A stretch of 53,089 nt of DNA from Dietzia sp. NCCP-2495. GTDB taxonomy: Bacteria > Actinomycetota > Actinomycetes > Mycobacteriales > Mycobacteriaceae. The number at the start of each line of letters is the position of its first letter. Positions within the stretch are counted from its first letter, which is position 1. The notes beneath the pieces were generated by a model, which saw only the letters and a list, made by a program, of their open reading frames with translations, searched no databases and was not told where the DNA came from. The translations under genes were made by a program, and so were the position numbers. Below are positions 24,536-42,671 of the stretch, piece by piece. The DNA is taken from assembly GCF_026011735.1 (NCBI RefSeq), contig NZ_BRVN01000021.1, positions 1-53,089 of the forward strand, written 5' to 3'.

Positions 24536-24605
24536 AATCCGCTACCCCCCGCCCGGATCCGCTACCCGTCCTGGGGTAGCGGATGTCGAGGGAGAGTAGC
24601 GGATT
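24536..24605. repeat. 70-bp palindromic repeat element, intergenic copy
   Basis: Four copies of the 9-bp core ATCCGCTAC, two direct (24537, 24557) then two inverted (starting 24576 and 24596), make an outer stem (AATCCGCTAC/GTAGCGGATT) and an inner stem (ATCCGCTACCC/GGGTAGCGGAT) around a six-base loop, 24568-24573. The second copy at 42235-42306 has the same core spacing base for base. This copy lies in the 163-bp gap between the choD-like gene and guaA. The rest of that gap shows no gene. Confidence 0.9.
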
Positions 24606-24629
24606 CCGGGGAGGGCGGGAACGAGCGCG

Positions 24630-26393
24630 TCAGCTCACGCCGACGATCGGCAGGCACAGCGCGCCCGGCGCCGCCTCGGGCACGAACGGCGACTTCGGCG
24701 GCACCGGCTGGATGCGCACATACGCCTGGCCCTGCGCCGGACGCGGATCGGCCTCGCCCTTGTTGGGCCACAGGGACATGGCGCGCTCAGCCTGCGCGGT
24801 GATGGTCAGCGCTGGGTTGACGCCGAGGTTCGCCGAGATCGCGGAGCCGTCCACGACGTGCATGGTCGGGTAGTTCCACACGCGGTGGTACGGGTCCACG
24901 ACGCCGCGCTCGGGCGAGTCTGAGATGGGGCAGCCGCCCAGGAAGTGCGCGGTCATGGGCATGTTGAACAGGTCGCCCACGGTGCCGCCGGCGATGCCGT
25001 CGATCTTGTCGGCTATCCGGCGCGTGGCCTCGTTGCCCTTGGGGATCCAGGTGGGGTTGGGCTCACCGTGTCCCTGCCTACTGGAGACGTAGCGGAACGG
25101 GCCGAAGCGCTTGACGAAGGTCTGCAGTGAGTTGTCCAGGTTCTGCATGACCAGCACGATCACGGTGCGCTGGCTCCACTTGCGGTAGTTCACCAACTTC
25201 AGGGCGCTGGTCGGCCGGCGCAGGACCTCGAGCAGGAACAGCAGCCAGCGGGGCATGGTGTCACTGCCGTCGGTGAGGAGGGTCTGCAGCGCGGCGATGG
25301 CGTTGGAGCCCTTGCCGTAGCGGACCGGCTCGATGTGGGTGTCGGGCGTGGGGTGGAAGGACGAGGTGATGGCCACGCCCTCAGAGAAGTCACGCTCGGG
25401 GATGTACTTGTCGCCCGCCGCGCCGAGGATGGACTCGGAGTTGGTCCGGGTGAGCTTGCCGAGCGCGGAGGACATGCGCGGCAGCGAGCCGTCGTCCTTC
25501 GCGTAGTGCAGCAGGTGCTGGGTGCCCCACGTGCCAGCGGCCACGATCACCTGCTTGGCGGTGATGGTGGTGGCCCGCTTACCGCGCTTGCTCCACGCCC
25601 CGGTGCGCTCGACGGTGACCTCCCACGAGCCGTCCTCGCGCTCGCGCAGGCCGGAGACCGTGGTGCGGTCAAGGATGCGGGCGCCGGCGCGCTCGGCCAG
25701 GCCGAGGTAATTCTTGACCAGCGTGTTCTTGGCGCCGTGGCGGCAGCCGGTCATGCACTCGCCGCACTCGATGCATGCCGTGCGGTCCGGGCCGACACCG
25801 CCGAAGAAGGGATCGGGGACGGTCTCGCCGGGCGCACCCTGGCCGCCGGTCTTCTCGCCGAAGTACACGCCGACCGGCGTGTAGACGAAGGTGTCCTCCG
25901 CGCCCATGTCCCGCGCGACCTCCTTCATCACCATGTCGGAGTGCGTGTGGGTGGGATTGGTGACCACGCCGAGCATGCGACGGCCCTGGTCGTAGAACGG
26001 GGACAGCTCGGAGTCCCAGTCGGTGATGTGTGCCCACTGCTCGTCGTTGAAGAACGGCGGGTTGGGCTTGTACAGCGTGTTGGCGTAGTTCAGCGAGCCA
26101 CCGCCCACGCCGGCGCCGGCCATGACCAGCACGTCGTTGAGCATGTGCACGCGCTGCAGGCCGAACAGGCCGATCTTGGGTGCCCACACGAACTTGTTGA
26201 GCCGCCAGGAGGTCTTGGCGAAGTCGGCGTCGGCGAACCGGCGACCGGCCTCCACGACCGTGACCGCGTAGCCCTTCTCCGTCAGCCGCAGCGCGGAGAC
26301 ACTGCCGCCGAATCCGGAGCCGACGACCAACACGTCCGTGTCGGTCGGCAAGGGTGCCGCGGTGGTCGTGTGCGGCTGCCTGGACGACGTCAT
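24630..26393 (-). CDS. choD: GMC-type FAD oxidoreductase, cholesterol-oxidase-like (ChoD family)
   Basis: A 587-residue flavoprotein. The N-terminal FAD dinucleotide-binding motif is VLVVGSGFGGSVSALRLTEKG, the GMC-type motif is AGAGVGGGSLNYANTLY, and a Cys-rich stretch CIECGECMTGCRHGAKNTL follows. The C-terminal part has TAHFLGGCPISDSPERGVVD and VVDGSAISANLGVNPALTI. It is homologous to M. tuberculosis ChoD, annotated as cholesterol oxidase although its steroid activity is debated; sterol or other hydroxylipid oxidation is the likely reaction. GGGGGAG precedes ATG 26393. Position beside guaB3/guaB matches the mycobacterial order. The 216-bp gap upstream holds the guaB3 terminator and, presumably, its promoter, which I could not place. 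Confidence 0.85.
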   Translation of the reverse strand: MTSSRQPHTTTAAPLPTDTDVLVVGSGFGGSVSALRLTEKGYAVTVVEAGRRFADADFAKTSWRLNKFVWAPKIGLFGLQRVHMLNDVLVMAGAGVGGGSLNYANTLYKPNPPFFNDEQWAHITDWDSELSPFYDQGRRMLGVVTNPTHTHSDMVMKEVARDMGAEDTFVYTPVGVYFGEKTGGQGAPGETVPDPFFGGVGPDRTACIECGECMTGCRHGAKNTLVKNYLGLAERAGARILDRTTVSGLREREDGSWEVTVERTGAWSKRGKRATTITAKQVIVAAGTWGTQHLLHYAKDDGSLPRMSSALGKLTRTNSESILGAAGDKYIPERDFSEGVAITSSFHPTPDTHIEPVRYGKGSNAIAALQTLLTDGSDTMPRWLLFLLEVLRRPTSALKLVNYRKWSQRTVIVLVMQNLDNSLQTFVKRFGPFRYVSSRQGHGEPNPTWIPKGNEATRRIADKIDGIAGGTVGDLFNMPMTAHFLGGCPISDSPERGVVDPYHRVWNYPTMHVVDGSAISANLGVNPALTITAQAERAMSLWPNKGEADPRPAQGQAYVRIQPVPPKSPFVPEAAPGALCLPIVGVS

Positions 26394-26565
26394 GACGAAA
26401 CTCCCCCGTGTGGGCCAATGATGCGGGTCACATTACCCGAGCGCCCAAGAACTTACCCGACAGTAGTACCGCTTATGTAAGTCAACTAGACCGCTGGCCG
26501 ACTCCGGGGCCGGGCCGGGGCGGGGGCACGGGCCGCTCCGGGCCTCTCCCCCGAAATGCCCCGCA

Positions 26566-26590
26566 CCCCGCAGCGACGTGCGCTGCGGGG
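26566..26590 (-). terminator. hairpin after guaB3
   Basis: CCCCGCAGCG (26566-26575) and CGCTGCGGGG (26581-26590) form a ten-pair stem with a five-base loop, about 20 bases past the guaB3 stop on the minus strand. No strong T-run follows. Confidence 0.7.
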
Positions 26591-26609
26591 CGCGTGACAC
26601 AGGCGAAAC

Positions 26610-27749
26610 TCAGCTCCGCACGGACAGGTCCACCTTCTGGAAGCCCTTCACGTCGGTGTAGCCGCACTTGGCCATCGCCCGGCGCAGGCCGCCCATGAGG
26701 TTGCGCGTGCCGTCGGGCTGGCTGGTCGGCCCCTCGAGCAGTTCGGTGAGCGGCGCGAGCGCGGTCTCGTCGTGCGTCTCGGCGACGAGACCGCGGGGCA
26801 TGTTGGGGTGCGCGGAGACGGAGTCCCAGTACACGCCCTTGCCGGGCGATTCGAGGGCGCCGGCGAGCAGCGGTCCCAGGACCACGGCGTCGGCCCCGCA
26901 CGCCACGGCGCGGGCGATGTCGCCGGAGGTGTAGATGTCGCCGTCGGCGAGCACGTGGACGTAGCGTCCACCGGTCTCGTCGAGGTAGTCGCGCCGCGCG
27001 GCGGCGGCGTCGGCGATGGCGGTGGCCATGTGGATCTCCACGCCGAGGACCGAGCCGGTGGTGGTGACGCCCTCGGCTCCGCCGAAGCCGACGATCACGC
27101 CGGCCGCGCCGGTGCGCATGAGGTGCAGCGCCGTCTTGTAGTCGACGACGCCACCGGCGATCACGGGAACGTCCAGTGAGCCGATGAACTCCTTGAGGTT
27201 CAGCGGCTCGTCCTCGCCGGAGACGTGCTCGGCGGAGATGATCGTGCCCTGGATGACCAGCATGTCGATGCCGGCCTTGATCAGCCCCGGCGTGAGCTCC
27301 CGCGCGCGCTGCGGCGAGACGCGCACGGCGACGGTCTGCCCCTCGTCGCGGATCGTGCGCACGGCGGCGGCGAGGTACTCCTCGTTGATGGGCGCCCTGT
27401 GCAGTTCCTGGAGCCGCGCCACGGCGCGGATACCGGTCAGGTCCTCCAGCGCGATGTCGCGGAGCTCGGCGATGGCCGCCTCGGGGTCGGCGTGGCGGGC
27501 CCACAGGCCCTCACCGTTGAGCACGGCCAGTCCGCCCTGGTTGTTGATCTCGATGGCCGACGACGGCGAGACGATCGCGTCCGTCGGATGGGTCATCACC
27601 GGGATTTCCATCTGATAGGCGTCGATCTGCCAGGCCGTGGACACCTCCTTGGAGCTGCGGGTGCGTCGGGCCGGGACGAGGTCGATCTCCCCCAGTCCGT
27701 ACATCCGACGGGCCTCGCGGCCCATTCCGATCTCTACGACATCACGCAC
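26610..27749 (-). CDS. guaB3: GuaB3 family IMP dehydrogenase-related protein
   Basis: A 379-residue TIM-barrel protein of the IMPDH/GMPR superfamily without CBS domains. Core motifs are VIAGGVVDYKTALHLMRTGAAGVIVG, GRYVHVLADGDIYTSGDIARAVACGADAVVLG (each family-typical, read here in pieces), and NLMGGLRRAMAKCGYTD. At the catalytic loop, where IMPDH has GSICTTR, this protein has EGVTTTGSV, so the nucleophilic Cys is absent at that position. The role of GuaB3 proteins is unsettled; some cyanobacterial members have been reported as GMP reductases. It starts 7 nt after the guaB stop, so the two form an operon, ending in a hairpin. Confidence 0.88.
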   Translation of the reverse strand: MRDVVEIGMGREARRMYGLGEIDLVPARRTRSSKEVSTAWQIDAYQMEIPVMTHPTDAIVSPSSAIEINNQGGLAVLNGEGLWARHADPEAAIAELRDIALEDLTGIRAVARLQELHRAPINEEYLAAAVRTIRDEGQTVAVRVSPQRARELTPGLIKAGIDMLVIQGTIISAEHVSGEDEPLNLKEFIGSLDVPVIAGGVVDYKTALHLMRTGAAGVIVGFGGAEGVTTTGSVLGVEIHMATAIADAAAARRDYLDETGGRYVHVLADGDIYTSGDIARAVACGADAVVLGPLLAGALESPGKGVYWDSVSAHPNMPRGLVAETHDETALAPLTELLEGPTSQPDGTRNLMGGLRRAMAKCGYTDVKGFQKVDLSVRS

Positions 27750-27756
27750 GGTTCGA

Positions 27757-29855
<2,099 letters not shown>

Positions 29856-29870
29856 GCTGAACGCTCCGGC

Positions 29871-29930
29871 GCACGACCAGCCGAAGCGCGGCCAGCCGCA
29901 GCACGACCAGCCGCAGCGCGACCAGCCAGC
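29871..29930 (+). repeat. 15-bp tandem repeat, four units
   Basis: GCACGACCAGCCGAA, GCGCGGCCAGCCGCA, GCACGACCAGCCGCA and GCGCGACCAGCCAGC follow head to tail directly after the DUF5319 gene. Units 1 and 3, and 2 and 4, are most alike, suggesting duplication of a 30-bp pair. Confidence 0.85.
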
Positions 29931-29943
29931 GCCCCAGAACGCA

Positions 29944-29987
29944 GACACCGGGCCCACACCTCCGAAAGGCGGTGTGGGCCCGGTGTC
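29944..29987. terminator. 17-bp-stem hairpin between convergent genes
   Basis: GACACCGGGCCCACACC (29944-29960) pairs perfectly with GGTGTGGGCCCGGTGTC (29971-29987). The loop TCCGAAAGGC can close two further pairs on a GAAA tetraloop. It is likely a bidirectional terminator for the DUF5319 and rsdA genes; neither side has a long T-run. Confidence 0.85.
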
Positions 29988-29991
29988 GTGT

Positions 29992-30015
29992 ATGCCGACC
30001 TCAGGGAGTCGGCAT
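29992..30015. terminator. second hairpin before rsdA end
   Basis: ATGCCGAC and GTCGGCAT form eight pairs around an eight-base loop, four bases right of the larger hairpin and 27 bases from the rsdA stop codon. It probably serves leftward transcription from rsdA. Confidence 0.6.
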
Positions 30016-30042
30016 CAGGTCATCGACCTCAGCGTGGCGGCG

Positions 30043-31089
30043 TCAGTTCGTCGGCGAGGTCGACTTGCCCGAGTTGCTCGGCGCCACGTCCTTCGCCGGT
30101 CCCTCCGGCTGCGACTGCGCCGTCGTGGTGGGCACCTGGGTTGTGACGGTGACCCGCGTCGGCGACGTCTGCGTCTGCGTTTCCTGGTTCAGGGTGTCGG
30201 CCGGGATCCCCGTCGTGGGCGCCAGGAAGTCCTGGAGCCGCTGGGTGTCGACCGGGATCTGCAGGGTCGTGCTGATCCCCAGGCCGTCCATCGGCAGCGG
30301 GATTACAGGCATGCCCGGGGCCGGCGGCGGGATGAGGTTCGACGGCAGCGGGACGGGCACTCCGGGGACCAGGGTGGCCTGGCCCGGCTGCGGCGCGGGC
30401 GCCGGACCGGGATCGGGTGCCGGTGCGGGCGACGGGACGGCGGTCGGGGTGACCCGTGACAGGTCTCGCAGGATCGCGTCACGACGCTTCATCAACTCCA
30501 CCCGTTCAGCGGCGTTGGTCACCTCGTCGAGTCGCTGGCTGACCTGTTCCAGGAGTCGCTCGGCCTCGCTGTGGTCCCCCTCGCGGGCCGCGTCATCCGC
30601 AGCCGCGAGGTACTCACTGAGATCGTTGACGAGCTCCACCTCGCCCGCGCGGTCGGAGAAGATCGTCTTGGAGACTCCCCAGAGCGGATCGCCGGGCATC
30701 GCGCTGTGCGCGGCCACGGACAGTCCGCCGACGATCATCGCGGCCACCGCGGCGGCGCCGGTCACGGCCTGCCACAGGGCGGGCCGCGTTCCGTGATGGT
30801 GGTCGCCACGCCGCGTCCAGACCCGACGCGGACGCAGCTGCGTCACGTTGGAGGCCATCGCGACCTCGATCTCCTCGGCGCTCGGGAGCGGCGGCATGGC
30901 CGCGGCGTCCGTCTCGGCGCGCCAGTCGGCGAGGAGGGCGACCAAGGGGTCGTCGCTGTCGGTCAGTTCACCGCTACCGAGAAGGTCCAGGAGTTCATCG
31001 TCGCGTGCGACCTCAGCCCGGTCGACATCCTGTGCGTCGAGCGAGGCGACATCGTCCCAGCCCTGCTGGCCGAAATCGTCGTCATTCAT
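30043..31089 (-). CDS. rsdA: anti-sigma-D factor RsdA
   Basis: A 348-residue membrane-anchored anti-sigma factor. The cytoplasmic N-terminus carries the sigma-binding segment DDELLDLLGSGE ... DPLVALLADWRAE (about 28-62). One membrane helix lies at about 107-127 (AVTGAAAVAAMIVGGLSVAA). Outside is an alpha-helical region (about 150-205), then a long Pro-rich and Thr/Ser-rich tail. The tail probably spans the cell wall and could be a site of regulated proteolysis, as described for RsdA-SigD in mycobacteria. ATG 31089 overlaps the sigD stop (ATGA), the coupling expected for a sigma/anti-sigma pair; a GTG two codons earlier is possible. Confidence 0.88.
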   Translation of the reverse strand: MNDDDFGQQGWDDVASLDAQDVDRAEVARDDELLDLLGSGELTDSDDPLVALLADWRAETDAAAMPPLPSAEEIEVAMASNVTQLRPRRVWTRRGDHHHGTRPALWQAVTGAAAVAAMIVGGLSVAAHSAMPGDPLWGVSKTIFSDRAGEVELVNDLSEYLAAADDAAREGDHSEAERLLEQVSQRLDEVTNAAERVELMKRRDAILRDLSRVTPTAVPSPAPAPDPGPAPAPQPGQATLVPGVPVPLPSNLIPPPAPGMPVIPLPMDGLGISTTLQIPVDTQRLQDFLAPTTGIPADTLNQETQTQTSPTRVTVTTQVPTTTAQSQPEGPAKDVAPSNSGKSTSPTN

Positions 31090-31667
31090 CGCCACCGCTC
31101 CTCTCCGTCCTTCTCGATCGTTGCCCGGAGCTGCTTCATCGCCCGGTGTTGGGCGACGCGCACGGCTCCGGCCGTGCTGTCGACGATCTCCGCCGTCTCT
31201 TCGGCGGAGAGTCCGACCACCACGCGTAGCCGGACGATCTCCCGTTGCTTCTCCGGCAGGGTCTGAAGCAGTGCTCGCACCGCATCTGAGACCTCACCTT
31301 CGAGGAGGTGATCCTCCGGCCCCGTGTCGTCTGAGAGCACCTCGGGGAGGTACTCCACGGGATCGGACTTGTTCCGAGCGTTGCCCCTGTGGGCGTCCGC
31401 GACCTTGTGAGACGCGATCCCGTACACGAATGCCATGAAGGGTCGTCCCTGGTCTCGGTATCCCGGCAGTGCCGAGAGAACCGCGATCAGGACCTCCTGG
31501 GCGACATCGTCAGCAGACAGGTTGGCTCTCTCCGAGCCGCCGACGCGGGAGCGGCAGTACCGCACCACGCCCGGCTGTACGAGTTCAAGCACACGCGACG
31601 CGGCGGTGCGGTCTCCCTTGACCGCTGCGGCGACGGCGAGTTCCAACTCGTCTGCTGTACCTGTCAT
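31086..31667 (-). CDS. sigD: ECF RNA polymerase sigma factor SigD
   Basis: A 193-residue group IV sigma factor. Region 2 spans about 25-95 (ADDVAQEVLIAVLSALPGYRDQG, then PFMAFVYGIASHKVADAHR). Region 4 spans about 130-185 (LPEKQREIVRLRVVVGLSAE, then TAGAVRVAQHRAMKQLR). Operon position with rsdA identifies it as SigD of Mycobacteriales, involved in stationary-phase and stress expression. ATG 31667 has no strong ribosome binding site visible. Three direct repeats with a 22-bp period lie 53-107 bp upstream and may be regulator sites. Confidence 0.92.
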   Translation of the reverse strand: MTGTADELELAVAAAVKGDRTAASRVLELVQPGVVRYCRSRVGGSERANLSADDVAQEVLIAVLSALPGYRDQGRPFMAFVYGIASHKVADAHRGNARNKSDPVEYLPEVLSDDTGPEDHLLEGEVSDAVRALLQTLPEKQREIVRLRVVVGLSAEETAEIVDSTAGAVRVAQHRAMKQLRATIEKDGEERWR

Positions 31668-31719
31668 CGAAATCGTGAGCCCGTTCGTTACACGAGGGTG
31701 TTACGGGGCGCAACCTTCC

Positions 31720-31774
31720 TGTCGGGGGTGAGATACCTGATTGTCGGGGGTGGAATGCCCGCATGTCGGAGGTC
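31720..31774 (-). repeat. three 22-bp-phased direct repeats upstream of sigD
   Basis: TGTCGGGGGTG at 31720-31730 and 31742-31752, and TGTCGGAGGTC at 31764-31774, are spaced exactly 22 bp, about two helical turns, so all three lie on one face of the DNA. They are 53-107 bp upstream of the sigD start, in a 383-bp gap (31668-32050) that otherwise holds two hairpins and no gene I can support. Confidence 0.6.
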
Positions 31775-31883
31775 AGACGCGCGGGCGTCACGAGAACGTC
31801 ACGAGCACCTGTCCGGGCAAGACGGTGGTCCGATTACGCGTCTGGCCCGGGACTGGCGCCGGGACGTCTACTCCCCCGATGTG

Positions 31884-31908
31884 CCCCGCGCCCATGTTAG
31901 GCGCGGGG
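31884..31908. terminator. hairpin between groEL and sigD
   Basis: CCCCGCGCC and GGCGCGGGG form a nine-pair stem with loop CATGTTA. It is about 140 bases beyond the groEL stop and over 200 bases upstream of sigD, and may prevent groEL transcripts reading into sigD. Confidence 0.6.
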
Positions 31909-31992
31909 CCGGAGTGTCCTAGGTTCACTTATGAGTGCCAAGCGTAACTGGTCGCTTTGCCACTCGACGACATTCCGGCCCGCGACGGCACC

Positions 31993-32028
31993 GGGCCCCG
32001 CCCTCCGGTTGACCGGTGGACGGGGCCC
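31993..32028 (-). terminator. groEL terminator hairpin
   Basis: GGGCCCCG (31993-32000) pairs with CGGGGCCC (32021-32028), and the interior folds again through CCGGT/ACCGG. It begins about 22 bases past the groEL stop codon on the minus strand. No T-run follows. Confidence 0.7.
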
Positions 32029-32050
32029 GAACGCGGTGTGCGTTAATGCA

Positions 32051-33673
<1,623 letters not shown>

Positions 33674-33797: not shown

Positions 33798-34085
33798 TCA
33801 GTCGATGATCGCCAGGACGTCGCGTGAGGAGAGGATCAGGTACTCCTTGCCCTCGTACTTGATCTCGGTGCCGCCGTACTTCGAGTAGATGACCTTGTCC
33901 CCGGCCTTGATGTCCATGGGGATACGGTCGCCGTCCTCGTCGAAGCGGCCCTCGCCGACCGCGACGACGGTGCCCTCCTGGGGCTTCTCCTTGGCGGTGT
34001 CCGGAATAACGAGGCCGGACGCCGTGGTGGTCTCGGCAACGGTGGCCTCGACGAGAATCTTGTCCTCAAGCGGCTTGATCGCCAC
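33798..34085 (-). CDS. groES: co-chaperonin GroES
   Basis: A 95-residue co-chaperonin that caps GroEL. It runs from [20 protein letters not shown] through the mobile loop ([17 protein letters not shown]) to [21 protein letters not shown]. Length and sequence are standard. Start is GTG 34085, with GGAGGAT ideally placed upstream. Expression should be heat-inducible and controlled by HrcA through the CIRCE element about 95 bp upstream, which lies over the predicted sigma-A-type promoter. Confidence 0.97.
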
Positions 34086-34179
34086 GATGGATCCTCCGTG
34101 TGTAGATGACGAATGTGTTCAGGGGGGCGGGGCTCCGGTGAACGCGTCGTCGCGGGTGACGCTGCCGGCTCCATGCCTA

Positions 34180-34211
34180 TTGGCACTCTATATGCGCGAG
34201 TGCCAGCACTC
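34180..34211. promoter_or_regulatory. CIRCE operator (HrcA site) with an extra half-site
   Basis: TTGGCACTC-N9-GAGTGCCAG (34180-34206) matches the CIRCE consensus TTAGCACTC-N9-GAGTGCTAA. A third half-site follows, so that GAGTGC-CA-GCACTC (34198-34211) forms a second, tighter inverted repeat. Confidence 0.9.
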
Positions 34212-34213
34212 AA
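34185..34213 (-). promoter_or_regulatory. groES-groEL promoter
   Basis: On the minus strand, TTGAGT (34213-34208) and TAGAGT (34190-34185) are separated by 17 bases and resemble -35 and -10 hexamers. The CIRCE half-sites overlap both, consistent with repression by steric exclusion. The leader to the groES GTG would be about 93 nt. Confidence 0.7.
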
Positions 34214-34316
34214 GTGTCTCGGGTGCACGATTCGCGCGCGTTCGCGGCTGGCGAACACGCGCCCTCCCCCAGCCGCGACGCCGTTGCCCCGCCACGCGAC
34301 GAGCACGCGCCTCACC

Positions 34317-34453
34317 CCGGTGCCGTTCCCGATGACGCCGGTGCCGTTCCCAGTGTTGGTGACGGGAATGGGGACGACGACGACACCGTCCCGCCGTTGC
34401 CCAGCCCGGCGCGCATCCTTTCCCCTCCGCTGAGCGCGCATCCTTTCCCCTCC
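34317..34453 (+). repeat. two families of direct repeats upstream of the YdcF-like gene
   Basis: CCGGTGCCGTTCCC occurs at 34317-34330 and 34338-34351 (period 21). GCGCGCATCCTTTCCCCTCC occurs exactly at 34409-34428 and 34434-34453 (period 25). They fill most of the 281-bp gap between the groES promoter and the next gene, which otherwise shows no coding capacity I trust. Confidence 0.8.
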
Positions 34454-34494
34454 CCTAAGCCACCGTTCAGGCTGCCTCCGTACGGTGTCCCTTC

Positions 34495-35076
34495 GTGAGA
34501 CCGAGAAGCAGGCGCGGCGCGACGATTCTGATGATCGTCGCGCTGCTCGTGCTCGCCCTGGTTCTCGCTGGCCTCGAGGCGGCGCGGGCGGTCCTGTTCC
34601 CGCGGGTCGATTCTCCGGAGCGCGTCGATGCGATCGTGGTGGTCGCGGGCGCGCCGGACGACCGCTACGTCTACGCCCGCCACCTGGCCGAGGAGGGCGT
34701 CGCCGACCACATCCTGGTGTCCCAACCCGGCGGCACCGGAAAGTACGCGGACATGATCGCCGCTTACTGCGCAGCCTCTCCGGTGGTCGCACGAGACGGG
34801 CGGCAGATCGACGTGGACTGCTTCACTCCCGACATCGATACGACCGAGGGCGAGACCACTGCGGCCACCCGCATCGCGCGCGAGAAGGGCTACCAGTCAC
34901 TGCTTGCCGTGACCTACTGGGGCCACGTCTCCCGCGTGCGGATGTACTTCGAGCATTGCTTCGACGGCGACGTCTACGTCACCGACACACCCCGCCCGCT
35001 CTCGAGATCACGCAAGCACGCCCTGCTGCACGAGACCGGCGGCTACGTGAAGGCCTTCATCAAGCCCGCCTGCTGA
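34495..35076 (+). CDS. YdcF/SanA-like (DUF218) membrane-anchored protein
   Basis: A 193-residue protein with one N-terminal membrane helix (ILMIVALLVLALVLAGLEAA, about 11-30), followed by a DUF218 Rossmann-like domain. Visible family features are DAIVVVAGAPDDRYVYARHL, the Thr/Glu-rich DTTEGETTAATRIAREKGYQ and TYWGHVSRVRMYFEHCF. Related proteins SanA and ElyC influence envelope integrity and vancomycin resistance in E. coli, but the biochemical activity of the family is not defined. GTG 34495 starts the frame; the ribosome binding site is poor. It stands alone, transcribed rightward between two leftward operons. Confidence 0.8.
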   Translation: MRPRSRRGATILMIVALLVLALVLAGLEAARAVLFPRVDSPERVDAIVVVAGAPDDRYVYARHLAEEGVADHILVSQPGGTGKYADMIAAYCAASPVVARDGRQIDVDCFTPDIDTTEGETTAATRIAREKGYQSLLAVTYWGHVSRVRMYFEHCFDGDVYVTDTPRPLSRSRKHALLHETGGYVKAFIKPAC

Positions 35077-35181
35077 CCGCGGCGCCACCGCTCCACACAC
35101 CGTGGCCCCTCCGCTCCGCCACCTGCCGCTCCACCCGCCTCCGCACCGAGCTCGCGTACCAAACCGGCGTACCCGAGAACT

Positions 35182-35254
35182 TCGTCGACACCACTGCGAA
35201 GCTTGTCGCCCTCAGTGCGAGGATCTGACCGGTTCTTCGCAGTGATGTCGACAA
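35182..35254. repeat. 20-bp inverted repeat with 33-bp spacer
   Basis: TCGTCGACACCACTGCGAAG (35182-35201) matches the reverse complement of CTTCGCAGTGATGTCGACAA (35235-35254) at 18 of 20 positions. The two mismatches become G-U wobbles in a leftward transcript, so it could form a hairpin downstream of tsaD. The 313-bp gap 35077-35389 also has a near-duplicate CTCTCCCTGCTGCCGAA/CTCTCCCCGCTGCCGAA and no supported gene. Confidence 0.75.
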
Positions 35255-35389
35255 GAACCAAGCGAGCTCTCCCTGCTGCCGAAGTGCGCTCTCCCCGCTG
35301 CCGAACGATGACTGCGCCACGGCACTGACTCGCGACTCCATGCGGAAGTCAGCGATTCAATCCGAATCCGCACTCCCCGAGACGGCTCG

Positions 35390-36427
35390 TCAGACCACCT
35401 GCGTCGTCTCGACCGGCAACCCGGGATCCGCGGCGACGGTCAGCGCACTCGGCGCCACCCCGTCTGCCAGGAGCGCGGACGCCACGCCCACGACCATCGC
35501 GCCGTTGTCGGTGCACAGTCGGGGTCGCGGCACGCGCAGCGTGATGCCCGCCGCCGCACACCGCTCCCCCGCGAGCTCGCGGAGTCGGGAGTTGGCGGCC
35601 ACTCCGCCGCCGATGAGCAGGGTGTCCACGCCGAGGTCGGTGCAGGCGCGGACGGCCTTCATGGTCAGCACGTCGGCCACGGCTTCCTGGAAGGAGGCGG
35701 CCACGTCGGCCACGTCGAGCTGCTCGCCGTGGCGCTCGGCTGCTTCGATCCGGCGGGCCACCGAGGTCTTGAGGCCGGAGAATGAGAAGTCGTGCCGGGC
35801 GTCGCGCTGCCCGGTCATCCCGCGCGGGAACGCGATCGCACGGGGATCGCCGGTCGCCGCGAGCCGGTCGATCACCGGGCCGCCCGGGTAGCCGAGGCCG
35901 AGGAGCCGCGCCACCTTGTCGTAGGCCTCGCCGGCGGCGTCGTCGACGGTCGAGCCCAGTTCCACAACCGGCTCGGTGAGCGAGCGGACGTGCAGTAGCT
36001 GGGTGTGGCCGCCGGAGACCAGCAGGGCAACGCACTCGGGTAGGGGGCCGCCGTCGAATCCGGCCACGGCTACGTGTCCGACCAGGTGGTTCACGGCGTA
36101 GAACGGCACTCCCCACGCGGCGGCGTAGGCCTTGGCGCCGGAGGAGCCGACGAGCAGCGCGCCCGACAGCCCGGGCCCGATGGTCGTGGCCACGGCGTCG
36201 GGACGGACAACTCCGGCCTCGGCGAGCGCGGCGCGGACGGTCGGCACGAGCGCCTCGAGGTGCGCACGCGAGGCGATCTCGGGCACCACCCCACCAAAGC
36301 GCGCGTGCTCGGACATCGACGACGCCACCACGTCAGCCAGCAGCTCGGCCCGGCCGTCGTCGTGGATCCGCGCCACGGCTACGCCGGTCTCGTCGCACGA
36401 ACTCTCGATCCCCATGACGGTCTTCAC
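35390..36427 (-). CDS. tsaD: tRNA N6-adenosine threonylcarbamoyltransferase TsaD
   Basis: A 345-residue ASKHA-fold enzyme that transfers the threonylcarbamoyl group to A37 of ANN-decoding tRNAs, the last step of t6A synthesis. Visible are [15 protein letters not shown], the metal-binding HLVGHV region after [39 protein letters not shown] (read in pieces) and [15 protein letters not shown], then [10 protein letters not shown]. Length is standard. The GTG start (36427) overlaps the rimI stop (GTGA). It works with TsaB and TsaE encoded upstream in the same run. Confidence 0.96.
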
Positions 36428-37044
36428 GAGCCGGCCACCTCTCCGGAGTTGTCGCGTGTGCCGGCCCCCGCCGCACCGCCCGCCCTCGCCTCAGCAATGG
36501 GAACCGTCTTGGTCCACGACGGCGCCGCCGTCTTCTGCGGCAACGGCTTCAGCGGCAGCGTCTTCCCGGGCCGCGTCATGAGATACGCGTCGGCATTGCT
36601 CGGCCGGTAGTACCGCGGACGCAGGCCGACTATTTCGAACCCGTGCGCCTCGTACATAGTCCGGGCGGGCATGTTGTCGGTCCGCACGTCGAGCAGCACG
36701 GGCGCGCCCTCGCGGTCCACCACATCGAGCATCTGCCGCAGCAGCGTCCGCCCGATCCCGAGACCCTGCGTCCGCTCGCTCACGCCGATGGTGTGCACCT
36801 CGAACTCGCGGTCGCTGCCGGTCCCCAGCGTGGCGAGCACGGCGTATCCGACCAGTTCGCCGTTCAGGCGTGCGGCGAAGCAGTGGTTGTGGCGTGAGCC
36901 GATCTCGGACAGGAACGCCGCCGCTGACCACGGTCCGTCGGGGCCGAACAGTTCGAGGTCCAGCGCGGCGCAGGCCATCGCGTCGTCCGCGGTGAGGGCG
37001 TCGTACACCACGCTCGCGGCCGTGGTGCGGTCCGCCGGGCTCAT
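36424..37044 (-). CDS. rimI: ribosomal-protein-alanine N-acetyltransferase RimI-like
   Basis: A 206-residue GNAT acetyltransferase. The acetyl-CoA motif is [20 protein letters not shown], preceded by [11 protein letters not shown] and followed by [23 protein letters not shown], the usual RimI order. RimI acetylates the N-terminus of ribosomal protein S18 and possibly other proteins. The first 150 residues or so cover the family; the last 50 ([18 protein letters not shown], then Gly/Ala-rich) are an extra tail. It is coupled to tsaB by ATGA and to tsaD by GTGA, the usual tsaB-rimI-tsaD cluster. Confidence 0.92.
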
Positions 37045-37763
37045 CGCTGCACCCCGGTCAGTGCTGCCGACGGTTCGACGGGCTTGGGTGGTACCGCGTC
37101 GGGTCTGCGCAGGTACAGCGGCACGAGGGGCGCGGGGTCGGTGCCGGCGAGCAGGTCGGCTGCGGCCACCGCGACGAGTCCGGCCGGGTCGGGCGAGGTA
37201 AGTGCGCCCGCCCCCGCCGCGCCCGTCCCGTCGCCCACCGCGGGGATCTCGGCGATCTTGGCGGGCTCGCCCACGACGCGCGCGCCGGTCACGTCGATCT
37301 CGGCGGCGGGTCCCACGATCGGGCCCGAGGTCCGCACGCCCTCACCGTTGTAGCGGGCGTGGTACGCCTCGCGTCGCCGGGCATCGGTGACGACGACGAC
37401 GTCGCCATCCACCCCCGCTGCGCGGGCCCGGGCAGCCACGGCGTCGAGCGAACAGACGCCGTGGACGGGTGCGCCGATCGCGTCGGCGAAGGCGGCGGCG
37501 GTGGCCATGCCCACGCGCAGTCCCGTGAAGGGGCCGGGCCCCACACCCACCACCACGGCGTCCAGCTCGGTGGGCGTGATGCCGACGGTGGACAGGCACT
37601 CGAGGATGTGCGGGGTGAGCAGTTCGGCGTGGGCGCGGGCGTCGTCGGTGACGCGGGTGGCCAGGGTCTCGATCCTCGGGCCATCTCCCGGGCCTGCGGG
37701 TTCCAGGCGGCAGACACCGGCGGTGACGTGAGGGGTAGAAGTATCGACGGAAAGGACCAGCAC
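37041..37763 (-). CDS. tsaB: tRNA threonylcarbamoyladenosine biosynthesis protein TsaB
   Basis: A 240-residue TsaD paralogue without catalytic residues that scaffolds the TsaB-TsaD-TsaE complex. Conserved parts are VLSVDTSTPHVTAGV at the N-terminus, VGVGPGPFTGLRVGMATAAAFADA and VVTDARRREAYHARYN. It begins at GTG 37763. The C-terminal portion is more variable and Pro-rich. Its stop overlaps rimI. A 46-bp gap separates it from the upstream tsaE gene on the same strand, so one transcript is likely. Confidence 0.93.
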   Translation of the reverse strand: MLVLSVDTSTPHVTAGVCRLEPAGPGDGPRIETLATRVTDDARAHAELLTPHILECLSTVGITPTELDAVVVGVGPGPFTGLRVGMATAAAFADAIGAPVHGVCSLDAVAARARAAGVDGDVVVVTDARRREAYHARYNGEGVRTSGPIVGPAAEIDVTGARVVGEPAKIAEIPAVGDGTGAAGAGALTSPDPAGLVAVAAADLLAGTDPAPLVPLYLRRPDAVPPKPVEPSAALTGVQR

Positions 37764-37809
37764 GAGGTCAGCGTACCGCTGCGCAGGCGGGATCCCCGCC
37801 CTCAGCCTG

Positions 37810-38295
37810 TCAGCCGGCGCGGTACCAGGAGGCGGAGCGGACCTCGGTGTCGTCGCCGCGGCGCATCTCGACCACGAGCGGTGCCTCGACGAGGGACTCC
37901 ACGAATCCGGCGCCCCACTCCACCACCACCACGTCGTGCTCCAGCGCGGAGTCCAGGTCGAGTGACTCGAGCTCGTCTGCCAGGTCGCGGCGGGTGGGCT
38001 GCTCGGCGTCGGGGTCTGCGCCCAGGAGTCGGTAGGCGTCCACGTGGACCAGGCCCGGGCCGCCGGGGGTTTCGGGGGCGTGACGGCGGGCTATGACGAA
38101 GGTCGGCGACGTGACCCGGCCGCGTACGCCGAGGCCGGCGGCGATGCCGGTGGTCAGCGCGGTTTTTCCGGCGCCAAGGGGTCCGTCGAGCACCACCACG
38201 TCGCCGGCCGTGAGCAGGCCGGCGAGCTCGGCGCCGAGCGCACGCGTGTCCTCGACGGTGGCCAGCTCGCGCCGACCCGGCACCTCGAGCGTCAC
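37810..38295 (-). CDS. tsaE: tRNA threonylcarbamoyladenosine biosynthesis ATPase TsaE
   Basis: A 161-residue P-loop ATPase required for t6A synthesis. Walker A is DGPLGAGKTALT (about residues 38-49), followed by VTSPTFVIARRH, the substrate-side HVDAYRL, and VVVVEWGAGF as Walker B region. GTG 38295 is used because it overlaps the stop of the upstream hydrolase gene (GTGA) and precedes the conserved VPGRRELATVEDT; the longer open frame is a shadow of that gene. It stands between the hydrolase and tsaB in the leftward run. Confidence 0.94.
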   Translation of the reverse strand: MTLEVPGRRELATVEDTRALGAELAGLLTAGDVVVLDGPLGAGKTALTTGIAAGLGVRGRVTSPTFVIARRHAPETPGGPGLVHVDAYRLLGADPDAEQPTRRDLADELESLDLDSALEHDVVVVEWGAGFVESLVEAPLVVEMRRGDDTEVRSASWYRAG

Positions 38296-39737
38296 GATGC
38301 CTTCGCGTCCCGGGCGGTGGAGCCGGCCTTGCCGGAAGCAGCCTTGCCGGGTGCGGTCTTGCGGGAAGCAGCCCTGCCGGACTTGGCAGCGCCGGATACG
38401 CCAGCTCCGCCCTTCTCGGCCTCGCGCTGGCGCTCGCGCCACTCGACAATCGCGTCGGCGACCAGGTCGCCCAGCACCTCGGACACGAGCGCGGGATCCT
38501 CGAGCATCACCATGTGACCGGCCCCGGGCACCACCACGAATTCGGAGTCGGGCAGCTCGTCGACGATGTCGACGGAGCGGTCGAGCGGGGTGAGCAGGTC
38601 GCGGTCGCCGCACAACACGGTCGTGCGGACGTCGCGGAGAATCTCCATCGCCCCGGACACGTCGACATCGGAGAGCGCCTCGAAGAAGTTCGCGATGGTG
38701 AGCACGTCGGTGGCGGCGATGACCTTGTCGGTGAAGCGCGCGAGGGTCGGGCTGACCGTGGCCGGATCACCGAACGAGCCGCCGTAGACGAGCGGCGAGA
38801 TGATCGCGCCGAGTGCCTTGCGACCGGAGGTGAACACGCCGGGTGTGCGGGTGGCCAGGCTGGCGAGGTTGGACAGTGCCTTGCTCTCGAGCACCGCGCC
38901 GAGCCCCGACTCGGTCAGGTCCGACTTTGCGGTGGCCACCAGCCCCGCCCCCAGGACGCGCTCGGCCACCAACTCGCGATGCTGCAACACGAACGACTGG
39001 ACGGTCATGCCGCCCATCGAGTGGCCGATCACCACGACCGGCCCGGTGGGCGCGGTCGCCGTGATGACGGTCGCCAGGTCGCGGCCCAACTGCTCGATGG
39101 TCGAGTTCTCGCGGGTGCTCTTGCCGCTCGACCCGTGGCCACGCTGGTCGTAGAAGACCATGCGGATCTCCGAGCCGAACCGATCGGCCAGGTGCCGGCG
39201 CTGGAAGTGCCACGTGTCCATGGTCAGCGTGTAGCCGTGGGCAAACACGACGGTCATGGGCGCGTCGACGGGCCCGGCCTCGCGCACGGCGAGCGGGACG
39301 CCGTCGGTGGCCGCCACCATCGAACCGCGGTCCACGCCGAGCTCGTACATGTCCTCGCCGGCCCACGGGTCCTTGGCCCGCCGACCCGGCATGAGAGTCG
39401 CGGCGGAACCGAAGCTCGCGGCGGCGAGTGCGGTCAGCGCTGAACCGACCCCGCCGGGTGTGCGGACCTGGTCATTGACCACCTCGATTGACGCCGGATC
39501 GCCGCCAACGGTCTCCGGCGCCTGGACCTCGATCGGCTCAGCGGGCGTTGAGCGTGTGGGGCGTCTCGGGAAACGGAACCGCGGGCGGCCTGAGCCGTCC
39601 GCCTCGGCGTCCAAGTCGAACCGACCCTCGTCCTGACGAGCCCCGTTCTTACGAGCCGCGTCACTGCGAGCCGCGTCCTGAGGCCCCTTGGCCCTGCTCT
39701 TGCGAGGACCCTTGCCCTTGCGTGACCTGTCCGTCAC
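38292..39737 (-). CDS. alpha/beta hydrolase with basic N- and C-terminal tails
   Basis: A 481-residue protein. The N-terminus (about 1-75) is very basic (SRKGKGPRKSRAKG). The hydrolase fold occupies about 130-430, with VVFAHGYTLTMDTWHFQRR, the nucleophile elbow GHSMGG (Ser about 240), CGDRDLLTP (Asp about 378) and PGAGHMVM (His about 407), so the triad is complete. The C-terminus is an Ala/Lys/Gly-rich tail with repeats such as PGKAASGKAG, reminiscent of nucleic-acid-binding or wall-interacting tails. Substrate is unknown. It is coupled to alr upstream and tsaE downstream by GTGA overlaps, a position kept in many Mycobacteriales. GTG 39737 is preferred on that basis. Confidence 0.85.
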   Translation of the reverse strand: MTDRSRKGKGPRKSRAKGPQDAARSDAARKNGARQDEGRFDLDAEADGSGRPRFRFPRRPTRSTPAEPIEVQAPETVGGDPASIEVVNDQVRTPGGVGSALTALAAASFGSAATLMPGRRAKDPWAGEDMYELGVDRGSMVAATDGVPLAVREAGPVDAPMTVVFAHGYTLTMDTWHFQRRHLADRFGSEIRMVFYDQRGHGSSGKSTRENSTIEQLGRDLATVITATAPTGPVVVIGHSMGGMTVQSFVLQHRELVAERVLGAGLVATAKSDLTESGLGAVLESKALSNLASLATRTPGVFTSGRKALGAIISPLVYGGSFGDPATVSPTLARFTDKVIAATDVLTIANFFEALSDVDVSGAMEILRDVRTTVLCGDRDLLTPLDRSVDIVDELPDSEFVVVPGAGHMVMLEDPALVSEVLGDLVADAIVEWRERQREAEKGGAGVSGAAKSGRAASRKTAPGKAASGKAGSTARDAKAS

Positions 39738-40903
39738 TTCGCACTCCCCTTGTCGCCGCCGGCGTGGCGTCCCAGCACATGCCGGCGCGCTCTCCCCCGC
39801 ACAGCGGTAACGACCTCGTAGTGGATGGTGCCCAGCTTGTCGGCCCACTCGGCGGCCGTGGGGCCGCCGTTCGTACCGTCGCCGAACAATACTGCTGTAT
39901 CGCCGGCGCGAATGGTGGGGTCAGGTGTCGGTCCGAGGTCGACGACGAACTGGTCCATGCAGACCCGGCCCACGTTCGGATACCGGACGCCGCCGATTTC
40001 AACGTCGATCTGGCCGGACAGTATCCGCCACACGCCGTCGGCATATCCCGCTGAGATTAGTGCCACTGTCGTGTCGTGAGGCGCGTGCCAGGTGTGCCCG
40101 TAGCTGACACCCTGACCTGCGGACAGTCTCTTGATCATGAGGATGTCCGCGGTGAACGACATGACCGGGCGCAGGTCCACATCCAGGTCGCCCACCGGGT
40201 CGAGGCCGTAGAGGGCGATGCCGGGGCGGACCATCTCGAAGCCGTCGTCCGGCCGGGTGAGCGTGGCCGCGGAGTTGGCGTGGTGGTTGACCGGGCAGGC
40301 GAGGCCCGCGGCCCGGGCCTGCTCCACGGCCTCGTGCAGGCGCGCGACCTGCTGGTCGATCACCGGGTTGCCGGGGTCATCGGCGTGCGCGAAATGCGCC
40401 ATGAGGCCCGTGACCTCGATCAACCCGCCCGCCTCGGCCGCGACCAGTCGCGTGAGGACCTCCGGCCAATCTTCTGGGGTGATGCCCGAGCGGGCCAGGC
40501 CGGTGTCGATCTTGGGGGTCACGCGCGCCCGCAGGCCGGTGCGGCGCGCGGCCTGGATCACCGTGTCCAGGTGGGCTGGGCTGGGGACCGCCAGGTCGAC
40601 ATCGGCTTCGAGCGCCGCGCGGACGTCGTCGGACGGGAGGTAGATCCACGCCAGGATCTCGGCGGTGATGCCGGCCTCGCGCAGTTCGAGCGCCTCGGCG
40701 ATCGTGGTGACGCCCAGCGCGTCCGCGCCGCCGCGAAGGGCGGCCAGCGAGACGGCGACGGCGCCGTGGCCATACGCATCGGCCTTGACCACGGCCATGA
40801 CCCGCGCCCCCTGTGCAGCATCGACCAGGACGCGAGCGTTGTGCTCGACTGCGTCCAGGTCGATCTCCGCACGGCAGGGAGCCGGGGGGACATTTGGTGC
40901 CAT
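39734..40903 (-). CDS. alr: alanine racemase
   Basis: A 389-residue fold-type III PLP enzyme making D-alanine for peptidoglycan. The PLP Lys lies in AVVKADAYGHGA. The opposing catalytic Tyr is probably that of ISAGYADGVWR. ATPKIDTGL-like sequence VTPKIDTGLARSGI, NHHANSAAT and the C-terminal VCMDQFVVDLG follow. ATG 40903 (MAPNVPPAPCRAEIDLDAVE) is preferred over a more distal upstream start that overlaps nnr. It is the second step, after nnr, in the leftward run and is coupled to the alpha/beta hydrolase gene. Confidence 0.95.
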   Translation of the reverse strand: MAPNVPPAPCRAEIDLDAVEHNARVLVDAAQGARVMAVVKADAYGHGAVAVSLAALRGGADALGVTTIAEALELREAGITAEILAWIYLPSDDVRAALEADVDLAVPSPAHLDTVIQAARRTGLRARVTPKIDTGLARSGITPEDWPEVLTRLVAAEAGGLIEVTGLMAHFAHADDPGNPVIDQQVARLHEAVEQARAAGLACPVNHHANSAATLTRPDDGFEMVRPGIALYGLDPVGDLDVDLRPVMSFTADILMIKRLSAGQGVSYGHTWHAPHDTTVALISAGYADGVWRILSGQIDVEIGGVRYPNVGRVCMDQFVVDLGPTPDPTIRAGDTAVLFGDGTNGGPTAAEWADKLGTIHYEVVTAVRGRARRHVLGRHAGGDKGSAK

Positions 40904-40940
40904 TCTGTCAATTCTGCCAAACGGGATAGCCGGGAGCGAT

Positions 40941-42671
40941 TCAGCGGGCGCGCAGGTCGGCGATCGCCCCAGGCAGCGCGGCCAGCAGATCCGACGCGCC
41001 GATCGGAGCACCGGGTCCGCCGGGGCCCAGATCACGACTGTGCGCGGCACGGTAGGCGGCACGGTGAGCGGCGTGCCCGTGGAGTATCGCGGCGGCCGCC
41101 GCCGGCCACGCGAGCGACGGGCTCGGTCCCGCGGGCGACCGACTCTGGTCCGCCTGTGACGAGCTCGTCCCGGCTTGTGACGTACTCGACCCCGTCGCGG
41201 CGTTGGCGATCAGCGCTCCTGCCACGCCAGCGAGCACGTCACCAGAGCCGGCCGTGGCCGCCCACGAGGAGCCGGCGTCCACCGCGTAGGTCACCTGGCC
41301 GTCGTCGATCAGCGTGACCCGGCCTTTGAGCAGGACCGTCGCCTCGATGCCCCGCTCCCTCAGACCCGCGACGTAGCGGCGGAGTGCGCCGGCCCGGTCT
41401 GCGCGGTCCCAGCCGCCGGTGAGCCGGTCGAACTCGCCGCCGTGTGGGGTGAGCAGGACCGGCGCGGTGGCACTGCGCAGCAGGACGGGGTGGGCGGCGA
41501 TGCAGGTCAGCGCGTCGGCGTCGAGGAGTGTCGGCCGGCCATGGGCCAGCACCGCGTCGATGTCGGCAATCCCATCCGGTCCCGTTCCCGCTCCGGGGCC
41601 CACGACCCACGCCTGCGCGGTGCCGGCCTCGGCGACCGACGGGTGGCACACCACCTCGGGACGCGCGGCGAGCACGCGGTCCGCGCCCGAGCCGACGTAG
41701 CGCACCATGCCCGACGTGGCGGCCACGGCTGCCGAGACGCTGAGCACCGCCGCTCCGGGGTACTTCTCGGATCCGGCGCGGATGGCCACTACGCCCTGGC
41801 TGTACTTGTCATCTGACGGGCCCGGCACAGGCCAGGCGCGCCCCACCTCCGCAAGGCTCGGGCGCAGGATCACCCCAGGCGCGGCGCTCTGCTCGGCGCG
41901 CAGCCCAACGCGTGTCTCGGCGTCCAGCGCAGCAATCGGCCCAGCGCCCGGCTCGGTGAGTCCGGTGTCCACCAGTTCCACGCGGCCGCAGGCGGGCGAG
42001 GCCAGCAGGTGCGCGCGACGGAGCAGTCCAAAAGTTACGGTCAGAGTGGCGGGCACATGCGGGGTGTGGATGGTGCCGGTGTCTGCGTCGACGCCGCTGG
42101 GCAGGTCCACGGCCACCCATGGCACTCCCGCCTCGGCCAGCGCGGTGACGATCTGCCCTGCAGGCTCGCGCAGTGGACCGCTCCCGCCGAGGCCGACGAT
42201 CCCGTCCACCGCCACATCCGGCATCCCCCGCCCGAAATCCGCTACTCCCCCTGCGGATCCGCTACCCCTAGACGGGTAGCGGATCCCCATTCCGGGTAGC
42301 GGATTTGCGGAGAATCCAGCCGCTGCGTCAACGGCCCGCCCTCCAGCGCGCCGCAGCGCAGCGAGCCCCCGTGCGTGTGCCCTCGCGGGATCGAGCAACA
42401 CGGCATCTACGCGGCAGCCCCGCTGGCGCAGCATCGCGCCGGCGTACAGGGCGTCCCCGCCGTTGTCGCCGCTGCCGACGAGCAGGAGCACCGACCCGCC
42501 GTACAGCCCGCCGGTGCGTTCCCGCAGCAGCGCCGCGGTGTGGTGGGCCAGGCCGGCGGCGGCCCGGCGCATGACGGCATCGGGATCGCCGGCCGCTGCG
42601 GCCGCCTCGATGAGCGGCCTCTCGGCGGACCGCACCGTTTCGACCGGATACGCGCGGCTGGTCACGGCCAC
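40941..42671 (-). CDS. nnr: bifunctional NAD(P)H-hydrate epimerase / ADP-dependent dehydratase with repeat-derived insertion
   Basis: A 576-residue NAD(P)HX repair enzyme. The N-terminal epimerase (about 1-240) has GSGDNGGDALYAGAMLRQRG, VDGIVGLGGSGPLR and VAVDLPSGVDADTG. The C-terminal dehydratase has PSDDKYSQGVVAIRAGS, LLDADALT, LLTPHGGEFDRLTG and the ATP/ADP site AGSGDVLAGVAGAL. Residues about 122-146 (starting NPLPGMGIRYPSRGSG) are encoded by a 72-bp palindromic element also found near 24.5 kb and are foreign to the family. A Ser/Gln/Pro-rich insertion (SSTSQAGTSSSQADQSRS) interrupts the dehydratase after GALIANAATG. The GTG start at 42671 or 42665 is ambiguous. Confidence 0.9.
   Translation of the reverse strand: MAVTSRAYPVETVRSAERPLIEAAAAAGDPDAVMRRAAAGLAHHTAALLRERTGGLYGGSVLLLVGSGDNGGDALYAGAMLRQRGCRVDAVLLDPARAHARGLAALRRAGGRAVDAAAGFSANPLPGMGIRYPSRGSGSAGGVADFGRGMPDVAVDGIVGLGGSGPLREPAGQIVTALAEAGVPWVAVDLPSGVDADTGTIHTPHVPATLTVTFGLLRRAHLLASPACGRVELVDTGLTEPGAGPIAALDAETRVGLRAEQSAAPGVILRPSLAEVGRAWPVPGPSDDKYSQGVVAIRAGSEKYPGAAVLSVSAAVAATSGMVRYVGSGADRVLAARPEVVCHPSVAEAGTAQAWVVGPGAGTGPDGIADIDAVLAHGRPTLLDADALTCIAAHPVLLRSATAPVLLTPHGGEFDRLTGGWDRADRAGALRRYVAGLRERGIEATVLLKGRVTLIDDGQVTYAVDAGSSWAATAGSGDVLAGVAGALIANAATGSSTSQAGTSSSQADQSRSPAGPSPSLAWPAAAAAILHGHAAHRAAYRAAHSRDLGPGGPGAPIGASDLLAALPGAIADLRAR
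42235..42306. repeat. 72-bp palindromic repeat element, copy inside nnr
   Basis: Core ATCCGCTAC at 42237 and 42257 and inverted GTAGCGGAT starting 42276 and 42296 have exactly the spacing of the copy at 24536-24605. Outer stem AAATCCGCTAC/GTAGCGGATTT has 11 pairs. Inner stem GGATCCGCTACCC/GGGTAGCGGATCC has 13 pairs around CTAGAC. The two stems are separated by nine bases on each side. The length is 24 codons, and the element is read in frame through nnr without a stop. Confidence 0.92.

Follow-up and report, generated by a model that had tools for sequence, protein, structure and literature searches.

Two copies of a palindromic element built from four 9-bp cores occur on the 53,089-nucleotide contig NZ_BRVN01000021.1 of Dietzia sp. 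NCCP-2495 (assembly GCF_026011735.1; this whole stretch is referred to as the window), raising the question of what these elements are and what disperses them. From the bracketing, dispersal and co-variation observed in the genome sequences we infer mobilisation, catalysis and movement, and consider it probable that the elements are non-autonomous palindromes of 68-72 bp with two nested conserved stems, resembling repetitive extragenic palindromes (REPs) and miniature inverted-repeat transposable elements (MITEs), which are dispersed in trans by a cognate AbiEi-DUF559 nuclease gene. As set out in a preliminary description of the window, both copies share the same core spacing, with exact cores (ATCCGCTAC / GTAGCGGAT) at offsets 0, 20, 39 and 59; an exact core search of the window places them at 24537, 24557, 24576 and 24596 in copy 1 and at 42237, 42257, 42276 and 42296 in copy 2. 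The copies are thus present where described, but their starts had been given 1-2 bases early, the four-core element being 68 bp long. The "double hairpin" likewise stands as two nested stems, but not as two separate hairpins, as each copy folds, whichever strand is taken, into a single long hairpin that nests an inner stem inside an outer one (z -5.9 to -8.4). No further exact core occurs anywhere in the window besides these eight, and the four-core pattern with its cores reversed, run as a control over 537 kb of locus DNA (overlapping loci counted), gave 0 matches even with 12 mismatches allowed.

The expectation of many copies genome-wide is borne out in the genome of the window (G000; 3.69 Mb, 64 contigs), where 43 exact two-core matches are found, against 0 for the reversed-pattern control, and a covariance model gives 60 matches with both strands counted, hence about 30 elements. 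At an E-value of 0.01 the model detects the family in 21 of the 23 Dietzia genomes, with 54 matches (both strands) in G018, 40-44 in each of G004, G008, G009, G010, G015 and G020 and none in G007 and G022, the copy number between Dietzia species ranging from 0 to about 30. The exact pattern is found in 17 of the 23 Dietzia genomes; among 301 genomes of the bacterial family, the 23 included, it occurs in 16 genomes and one of 31 genera, and is absent from the 278 non-Dietzia genomes. Of the four-core stretches in the genome collection, 27 of 28 are labelled Dietzia and one lies on a contig labelled as a Gordonia metagenome-assembled genome. This contig (L042, NZ_JAAYXO010000001.1) was considered as a sign of transfer and rejected, being most likely mis-binned Dietzia, since it carries a gyrB-gyrA locus whose element is one base off that on G000 contig C28 and lies at equal distances from its neighbours. 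The REP-like family is real, and its host range so far is only Dietzia. Its some 30 copies, concerted core change, in-frame copies within genes and a site that holds the element in some relatives and lacks it in others support the proposal of a REP/MITE-like dispersed family, and no described family with this core was found in the open-access literature, most subscription journals and preprints lying outside that coverage.

The transposase type that had been named, a REP-associated tyrosine transposase (RAYT), was not found. PF01797 is found in 0 of the 23 Dietzia genomes, 15 of which are at least 90% complete, against 5 of 14 control genomes, and a RAYT/Y1 transposase was therefore rejected as the mobiliser. 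Element pairs about 1.2-1.4 kb apart bracket one and the same gene in G000, G004, G008, G015, G018 and G020, where the G020 gene was missed by the gene finder and recovered by protein match, and the bracketed gene is also present in G009 and G014, so that all eight loci of this subfamily (subfamily A, at least 60% identity to the G004 copy) are flanked by an element pair. In G000 the unit is located on contig C9 between crp-like and metallo-beta-lactamase-like genes (named by eye), and in G018 it is found at a different place, beside a gene resembling polyphosphate kinase 2 (by eye), with its own variant cores. The outer core in G018 is altered alike in the dispersed copies and in the gene-flanking pair, 39 of the 44 outer cores read being ATCGGCGAC, paired with GTCGCCGAT, and the 20/19/20 spacing is kept in 22 of 22 elements read. 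Paired core variants ATCCGCTAT / ATAGCGGAT are found in G020, and inner-stem variants ATCCGCCAC / GTGGCGGAT in two G006 elements. Conservation extends past the core in 54 distinct elements with both orientations pooled, the second base after the outer core being C in 98% and the base before it A in 86%; core conservation in this set is biased upward, as the elements were found via exact cores.

The bracketed gene codes for a protein of about 320 amino acids with an AbiEi-like N-terminus and a DUF559 (Vsr-like nuclease) C-terminus. All eight proteins scanned with the PADLOC AbiEi models match them over their first two thirds, the G004 copy at 3.6e-15. Of 13 proteins scanned for PF04480 (DUF559), two exceed its cut-off (best value 1.2e-6), four score below it and seven are not listed. 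Five catalytic-type residues (E216, D248, E259, D261 and K265) are invariant in 16 paralogues, and in a single-sequence structure model (mean pLDDT 44) the better C-terminal part is ordered alpha-beta-beta-beta-alpha-beta. Among the 50 PDB matches listed for this model, the highest probability is that of the catalytic domain of the homing endonuclease I-Bth0305I (3r3p; probability 0.96, E 0.13, rank 3). On the grounds of the invariant acidic residues and lysine and of the alpha-beta core, the C-terminal domain is predicted to fit a PD-(D/E)XK / Vsr-like nuclease. A PDB sequence search with the protein gave one chance-level match, NCBIfam matched 0 of 8 AbiEi-DUF559 proteins, and no toxin partner, in AbiE systems a DUF1814 gene, was seen by eye among the neighbours at the eight loci, no systematic search having been made. 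Carriage of the gene by phages, plasmids and viruses was also considered and rejected: there is no match in phages, the seven matches among plasmid records (148 kb to 1.35 Mb in size) do not reach 60% identity, and none of the 62 viral-contig stretches with the peptide pattern is a relative.

Genomes with subfamily A carry more elements (30, 21, 20, 20, 13, 21, 27 and 22) than those without it (6, 4, 8, 15, 17.5, 0, 21, 4, 2, 10.5, 1, 2, 4, 9.5 and 0), with Mann-Whitney p = 2.7e-4 for 8 versus 15 genomes and no phylogenetic correction, element numbers being covariance matches halved in assemblies 64-100% complete. The crp site of the G000 unit can be compared across relatives, a crp match being present in 19 genomes. 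The A unit is located there in G000, G004, G008, G009, G015 and G020, a single element in G021 and a degraded one in G006. A different hairpin takes the site in G003, G012, G013 and G016, the G002 hairpin resembles part of a family B variant, and there is no hairpin in the crp gap of G007, G017 and G022; crp has another neighbour in G005 and G019, and the sequence reads N in G014. The presence of the unit at some of these sites and its absence from others suggests insertion or loss, in one direction or the other. The hairpin with AAGAGCGTTCCGCACAC recurs at the 3' end of crp in the species without the unit G003, G012, G013 and G016 (L316, L327, L325, L326); L323 holds its start, and it occurs once elsewhere in G000 (L072:74-145), the L316 and L072 versions departing from it by one or two bases. 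It is perhaps another family.

The crp comparison also bears on a homing account, in which the nuclease gene itself would be mobile, inserting at the palindrome as its recognition site and duplicating it, with solo elements being old or empty targets. This account is unlikely, though it draws on the fold match to the homing endonuclease and on the single elements that G021 and G006 hold at the crp site of relatives without the unit; it ill explains some 30 palindromes with the same core at unrelated sites, in-frame genic copies and concerted change between species. The likeness to I-Bth0305I, which we take to be Vsr-like, lies in the model-based match to the fold of its catalytic domain, and the Dietzia gene differs from it in being bracketed by palindromes and in not being seen within another gene at the eight loci.

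Homologues of the AbiEi-DUF559 gene are present at E 1e-5 in every one of the 23 Dietzia genomes, some of them weak or partial, and at E 1e-10 they are found in 28 of the 30 other genera. The paralogues are often bracketed by distinct palindromes of about 60-80 bp, one type per subfamily, other genera included. Long palindromes number 79 within 350 bp of the genes (54.8 kb) versus 3 farther out (177 kb). The similarity of left and right flanks lies above the 95% null at 42 of the 49 loci in Dietzia and at 23 of the 30 in other genera (79 of 80 loci had enough flank, and orthologous loci are counted more than once). Left/right similarity scores are 91, 74 and 111 in named records of Collinsella, Arthrobacter and Tsukamurella, and a second Arthrobacter locus scores just 32, the Arthrobacter gene ends being estimated for this scoring. 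The gene can be regarded as a strongly associated candidate mobiliser with relatives widespread in actinobacteria.

Several of these palindromes are themselves dispersed. In a search with 15 joined palindromes, in which sites were counted among the matches listed, family B occurs in G009 at no fewer than (at least) 19 sites apart from its unit, plus 14 sites in 6.3-kb arrays, and family J in G047, a genome of another genus, at at least 6 sites apart from its unit. Families E, I and C1 are found at at least 4, at least 5 and at least 3 sites in G020 and family C2 at at least one site in G009, and none was found beyond the units for C2 in G020, D in G009 and K in G047 among the matches listed. 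The counts are probably low, as the family A positive control gave 7 sites (query excluded) of about 22. Fourteen family B copies read in context comprise 10 convergent, 1 tandem and 3 called divergent. The Collinsella palindrome is present at 22 places in one 0.9-Mb record, that of Arthrobacter at 23 and 20 places in two records and that of Tsukamurella at 3 in its record, these places including the unit flanks and not having been inspected individually. The family B palindromes in the G009 arrays (contigs C3, C4 and C1:363000-376100) recur every 6.3 kb or so at 14 places, and this periodicity points to a tandem-amplified 6.3-kb segment. Family B-like palindromes are also present in G020 (C1, at 1716506, 2521003 and 2895793), in which no subfamily B gene was found; they may possibly be orphans of a lost gene.

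The location of the family A elements was classified with our own simple gene finder, orthologous copies being counted separately, for 127 elements with 20/19/20 spacing out of the 145 kept by the element finder (the other 18 were dropped). These comprise 77 convergent, 37 tandem and no divergent copies (114 classified between genes), nine at contig edges and four inside genes, against background gaps of at least 68 bp of which 102 are tandem, 60 convergent and 58 divergent; the p-values (9e-16 for zero divergent) are too small, as each orthologue enters the count by itself and the background gaps were taken from those same element-rich loci. Elements lie a median of 38-39 bp from stop codons, and in the tandem gaps the upstream stop is a median of 39 bp away versus 92 bp for the next start, the stop being nearer in 27 of 37. 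A classical intrinsic terminator was rejected for want of a U-tract, with TTTT after the stem at just 27 of 290 ends and no terminator-like site in 24300-24800 around copy 1.

Both kinds of location are represented in the window (Table 1). Copy 1 lies between the GMC oxidoreductase stop and the called guaA start, at 25 bp from each. Copy 2 is, as a correction, not intergenic but an in-frame part of nnr; it was entered as tandem in the location count because the simple gene finder began nnr downstream of it, at 42224. The YjeF_N match runs across copy 2 (residues 32-219, 188 residues versus 166 profile positions), and the two blocks aligned to PDB 2ax3 on either side of this copy differ by 24 residues in their offset, although the first scores just 3.6 bits. 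An Rfam scan of the window gave one tRNA and nothing else.

Table 1. Coordinates of the two element copies and their associated genes in the window
Feature	Position	Strand	Context or domain evidence
Element copy 1, four cores, palindromic	24537..24604	.	Intergenic
Element copy 2, four cores, palindromic	42237..42304	.	In frame within nnr, encodes NPLPGMGIRYPSRGSGSAGGVADF
nnr, bifunctional NAD(P)H-hydrate epimerase/dehydratase (YjeF_N + Carb_kinase), carries copy 2	40944..42671	-	PF03853 1e-30, PF01256 6e-40
guaA (GMP synthase), downstream neighbour of copy 1	22793..24511	-	
GMC-type FAD oxidoreductase gene, 3' end beside copy 1	24630..26393	-	

Six genic copies at other loci (L033, L038, L181, L185, L198 and L220, some of them orthologous) code for similar peptides in the same frame, and of 254 strand readings of the elements 149 have exactly one stop-free frame and 27 have none. 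In three species (L181, L198 and L220) an in-frame copy is found at equivalent positions of a membrane-protein gene, and this shared position probably reflects an old insertion retained in frame. The Rickettsia palindromic elements are repeats known to insert in frame into coding genes. Compared by description rather than by sequence, the Dietzia elements share with these the in-frame genic copies and differ in that most copies are intergenic and the host is another.

The preliminary description held that selection had kept the cores and not the spacers. The spacers do vary, but their two sides co-vary: in the 127 elements, whose selection required paired cores but set no condition on the spacers, a mean of 7.13 of the 11 spacer positions are complementary across the arm, versus 6.48 after within-genome reshuffling, none of 2000 shuffles reaching the observed mean, with orthologous loci counted more than once here as in the location counts. 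By genome, the number of the 2000 shuffles as high is 0 in G008, 1 in G020, 39 in G015, 105 in G018, 176 in G000, where alone the excess is not significant, and 866 in G013. The 10-bp centre shows no excess of complementarity (2.59 of 5 versus 2.65, 54 elements). Selection at the RNA level, assessed from G-U versus A-C mismatches in tandem contexts, gave 69 versus 48 (p = 0.064) and is not decisive.

Covarying stems, together with the 0 divergent of 114 classified elements and the short distance from stop codons, would also suit host-owned 3'-end sites, namely regulatory sites, bidirectional terminators or sites of nucleoid proteins under selection, with an AbiEi-DUF559 regulator using the adjacent copies as its operators. 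The AbiEi antitoxins are described in PMC7319586 as binding to inverted repeats located at the promoters of their own genes, and ordinary hairpins take the same crp site in several relatives. We nevertheless regard host ownership as quite improbable: the U-tract is lacking at most ends, as given above, three of the 14 family B copies have flanking genes called as divergent, copy number varies between 0 and about 30 across species with in-frame copies within genes, and no operator is needed at the place of the second element, downstream of the gene. Correction of quasi-palindromes by template switching is a known mutational process, and as a mechanical source of matched arms without selection it suits spacers that differ freely among copies yet match across the arm, but it leaves the exact cores, the shared family and the gene association unexplained and is very improbable as the whole account, though it may act in addition.

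In the favoured account of dispersal by the AbiEi-DUF559 nuclease, the autonomous unit would consist of an element, the gene for the AbiEi-like domain and DUF559/Vsr-like nuclease, and a second element. The AbiEi-like part may recognise the cores, and the PD-(D/E)XK part may cut or nick the DNA or the extruded hairpin. Copies would survive where they are least harmful, the locations observed being 3' of genes, between convergent genes and at times in frame within genes, and once settled would probably serve as strong 3'-end hairpins. Several points weigh against this account. No transposition was seen, and no target-site duplication or clean pre-insertion site has been established, a nucleotide-level alignment of pre-insertion sites not having been made. 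Bracketing is incomplete, palindromes of at least 50 bp being present on both sides at 26, on one side at 13 and on neither at 11 of 50 Dietzia loci, and at 8, 15 and 7 of 30 other-genus loci, the loci scored including orthologues and some cut short by a contig edge. No locus lies above the 99% null of flank similarity, the null being inflated by orthologous pairs within it, and flank similarity between different units, rejected as a measure of coevolution, tracks protein identity weakly (Spearman 0.21). The repeated counting of orthologous loci given above affects the flank, spacer and location counts alike. G010 (21), G006 (17.5) and G005 (15) are element-rich without a detected subfamily A gene, although the unit of G010 may be missing from the assembly, in which there is no crp match either. 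The structure model is poor at its mean pLDDT, and no PDB match reached E 0.001 or better.

The closest known systems are the REP / REPIN elements with RAYT (TnpA-REP), or REPtrons. The RAYT gene is flanked by two inverted REPs, with coevolution of the two and a copy number tied to the presence of the gene, in the portion of PMC2817692 available. With the systems covered by the available parts of PMC2817692, PMC3116915, PMC6006769 and PMC3733652, the Dietzia elements share palindromes dispersed mostly 3' of genes, an enzyme gene between two copies, one element type per enzyme with several types per genome, an element number that follows the presence of the gene, and joint change of element and enzyme. 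They differ in the enzyme, which is AbiEi plus DUF559, with no Y1/HUH transposase in the 23 genomes, in the size of the elements (about 60-80 bp) and the two cores that each arm has in family A, and in number, there being tens of copies here and usually more than 100 REPs per genome. A word search of the available text of PMC3733652 and PMC6006769 gave no mention of Dietzia or actinobacteria.

A 5' GTAG/GGAG foot outside the stem is a hallmark of REPs. In the Dietzia elements GTAG instead lies within the paired core and is lost in the G018 variant GTCGCCGAT; the corresponding tetranucleotide of REPs is given as GT[AG]G in the accessible part of PMC6006769. The likeness to MITEs, as outlined in the part of the review PMC10969869 available, rests on the elements being short, non-autonomous, palindromic and dispersed, and that text has no mention of DUF559, AbiEi, Dietzia or actinobacteria. 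With the AbiE type IV toxin-antitoxin system and its antitoxin AbiEi, as far as described in the text seen of PMC7319586 and PMC3985639, the protein shares the AbiEi-like N-terminal two thirds, AbiEi being a protein that binds inverted repeats, and it differs in the fusion to a DUF559 nuclease-type domain.

No described driver was found for palindromic repeats in these actinobacteria in the open-access literature searched, and the nuclease-like gene, bracketed in several genera by a repeat family of its own, is a direct candidate, which gives a testable function to a widespread "protein of unknown function" (DUF559, at times annotated as AbiEi-family antitoxin). A way of life like that of RAYT and REP may, this suggests, come about with an enzyme of unrelated origin; if true, palindromic-repeat dispersal would have evolved at least twice with unrelated enzymes, and the paralogues would offer a naturally occurring set of enzyme-repeat pairs on which to study specificity. 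The broader proposition, that the Actinomycetota hold a widespread undescribed REPtron-like class in which an AbiEi-related domain with a Vsr-like nuclease, rather than an HUH enzyme, disperses nested-stem palindromes, one per paralogue, we hold to be evenly poised. As a minor observation on the elements themselves, half an element is duplicated at G000:C5:89974-90100 (L065 near 4975), giving a longer core array.

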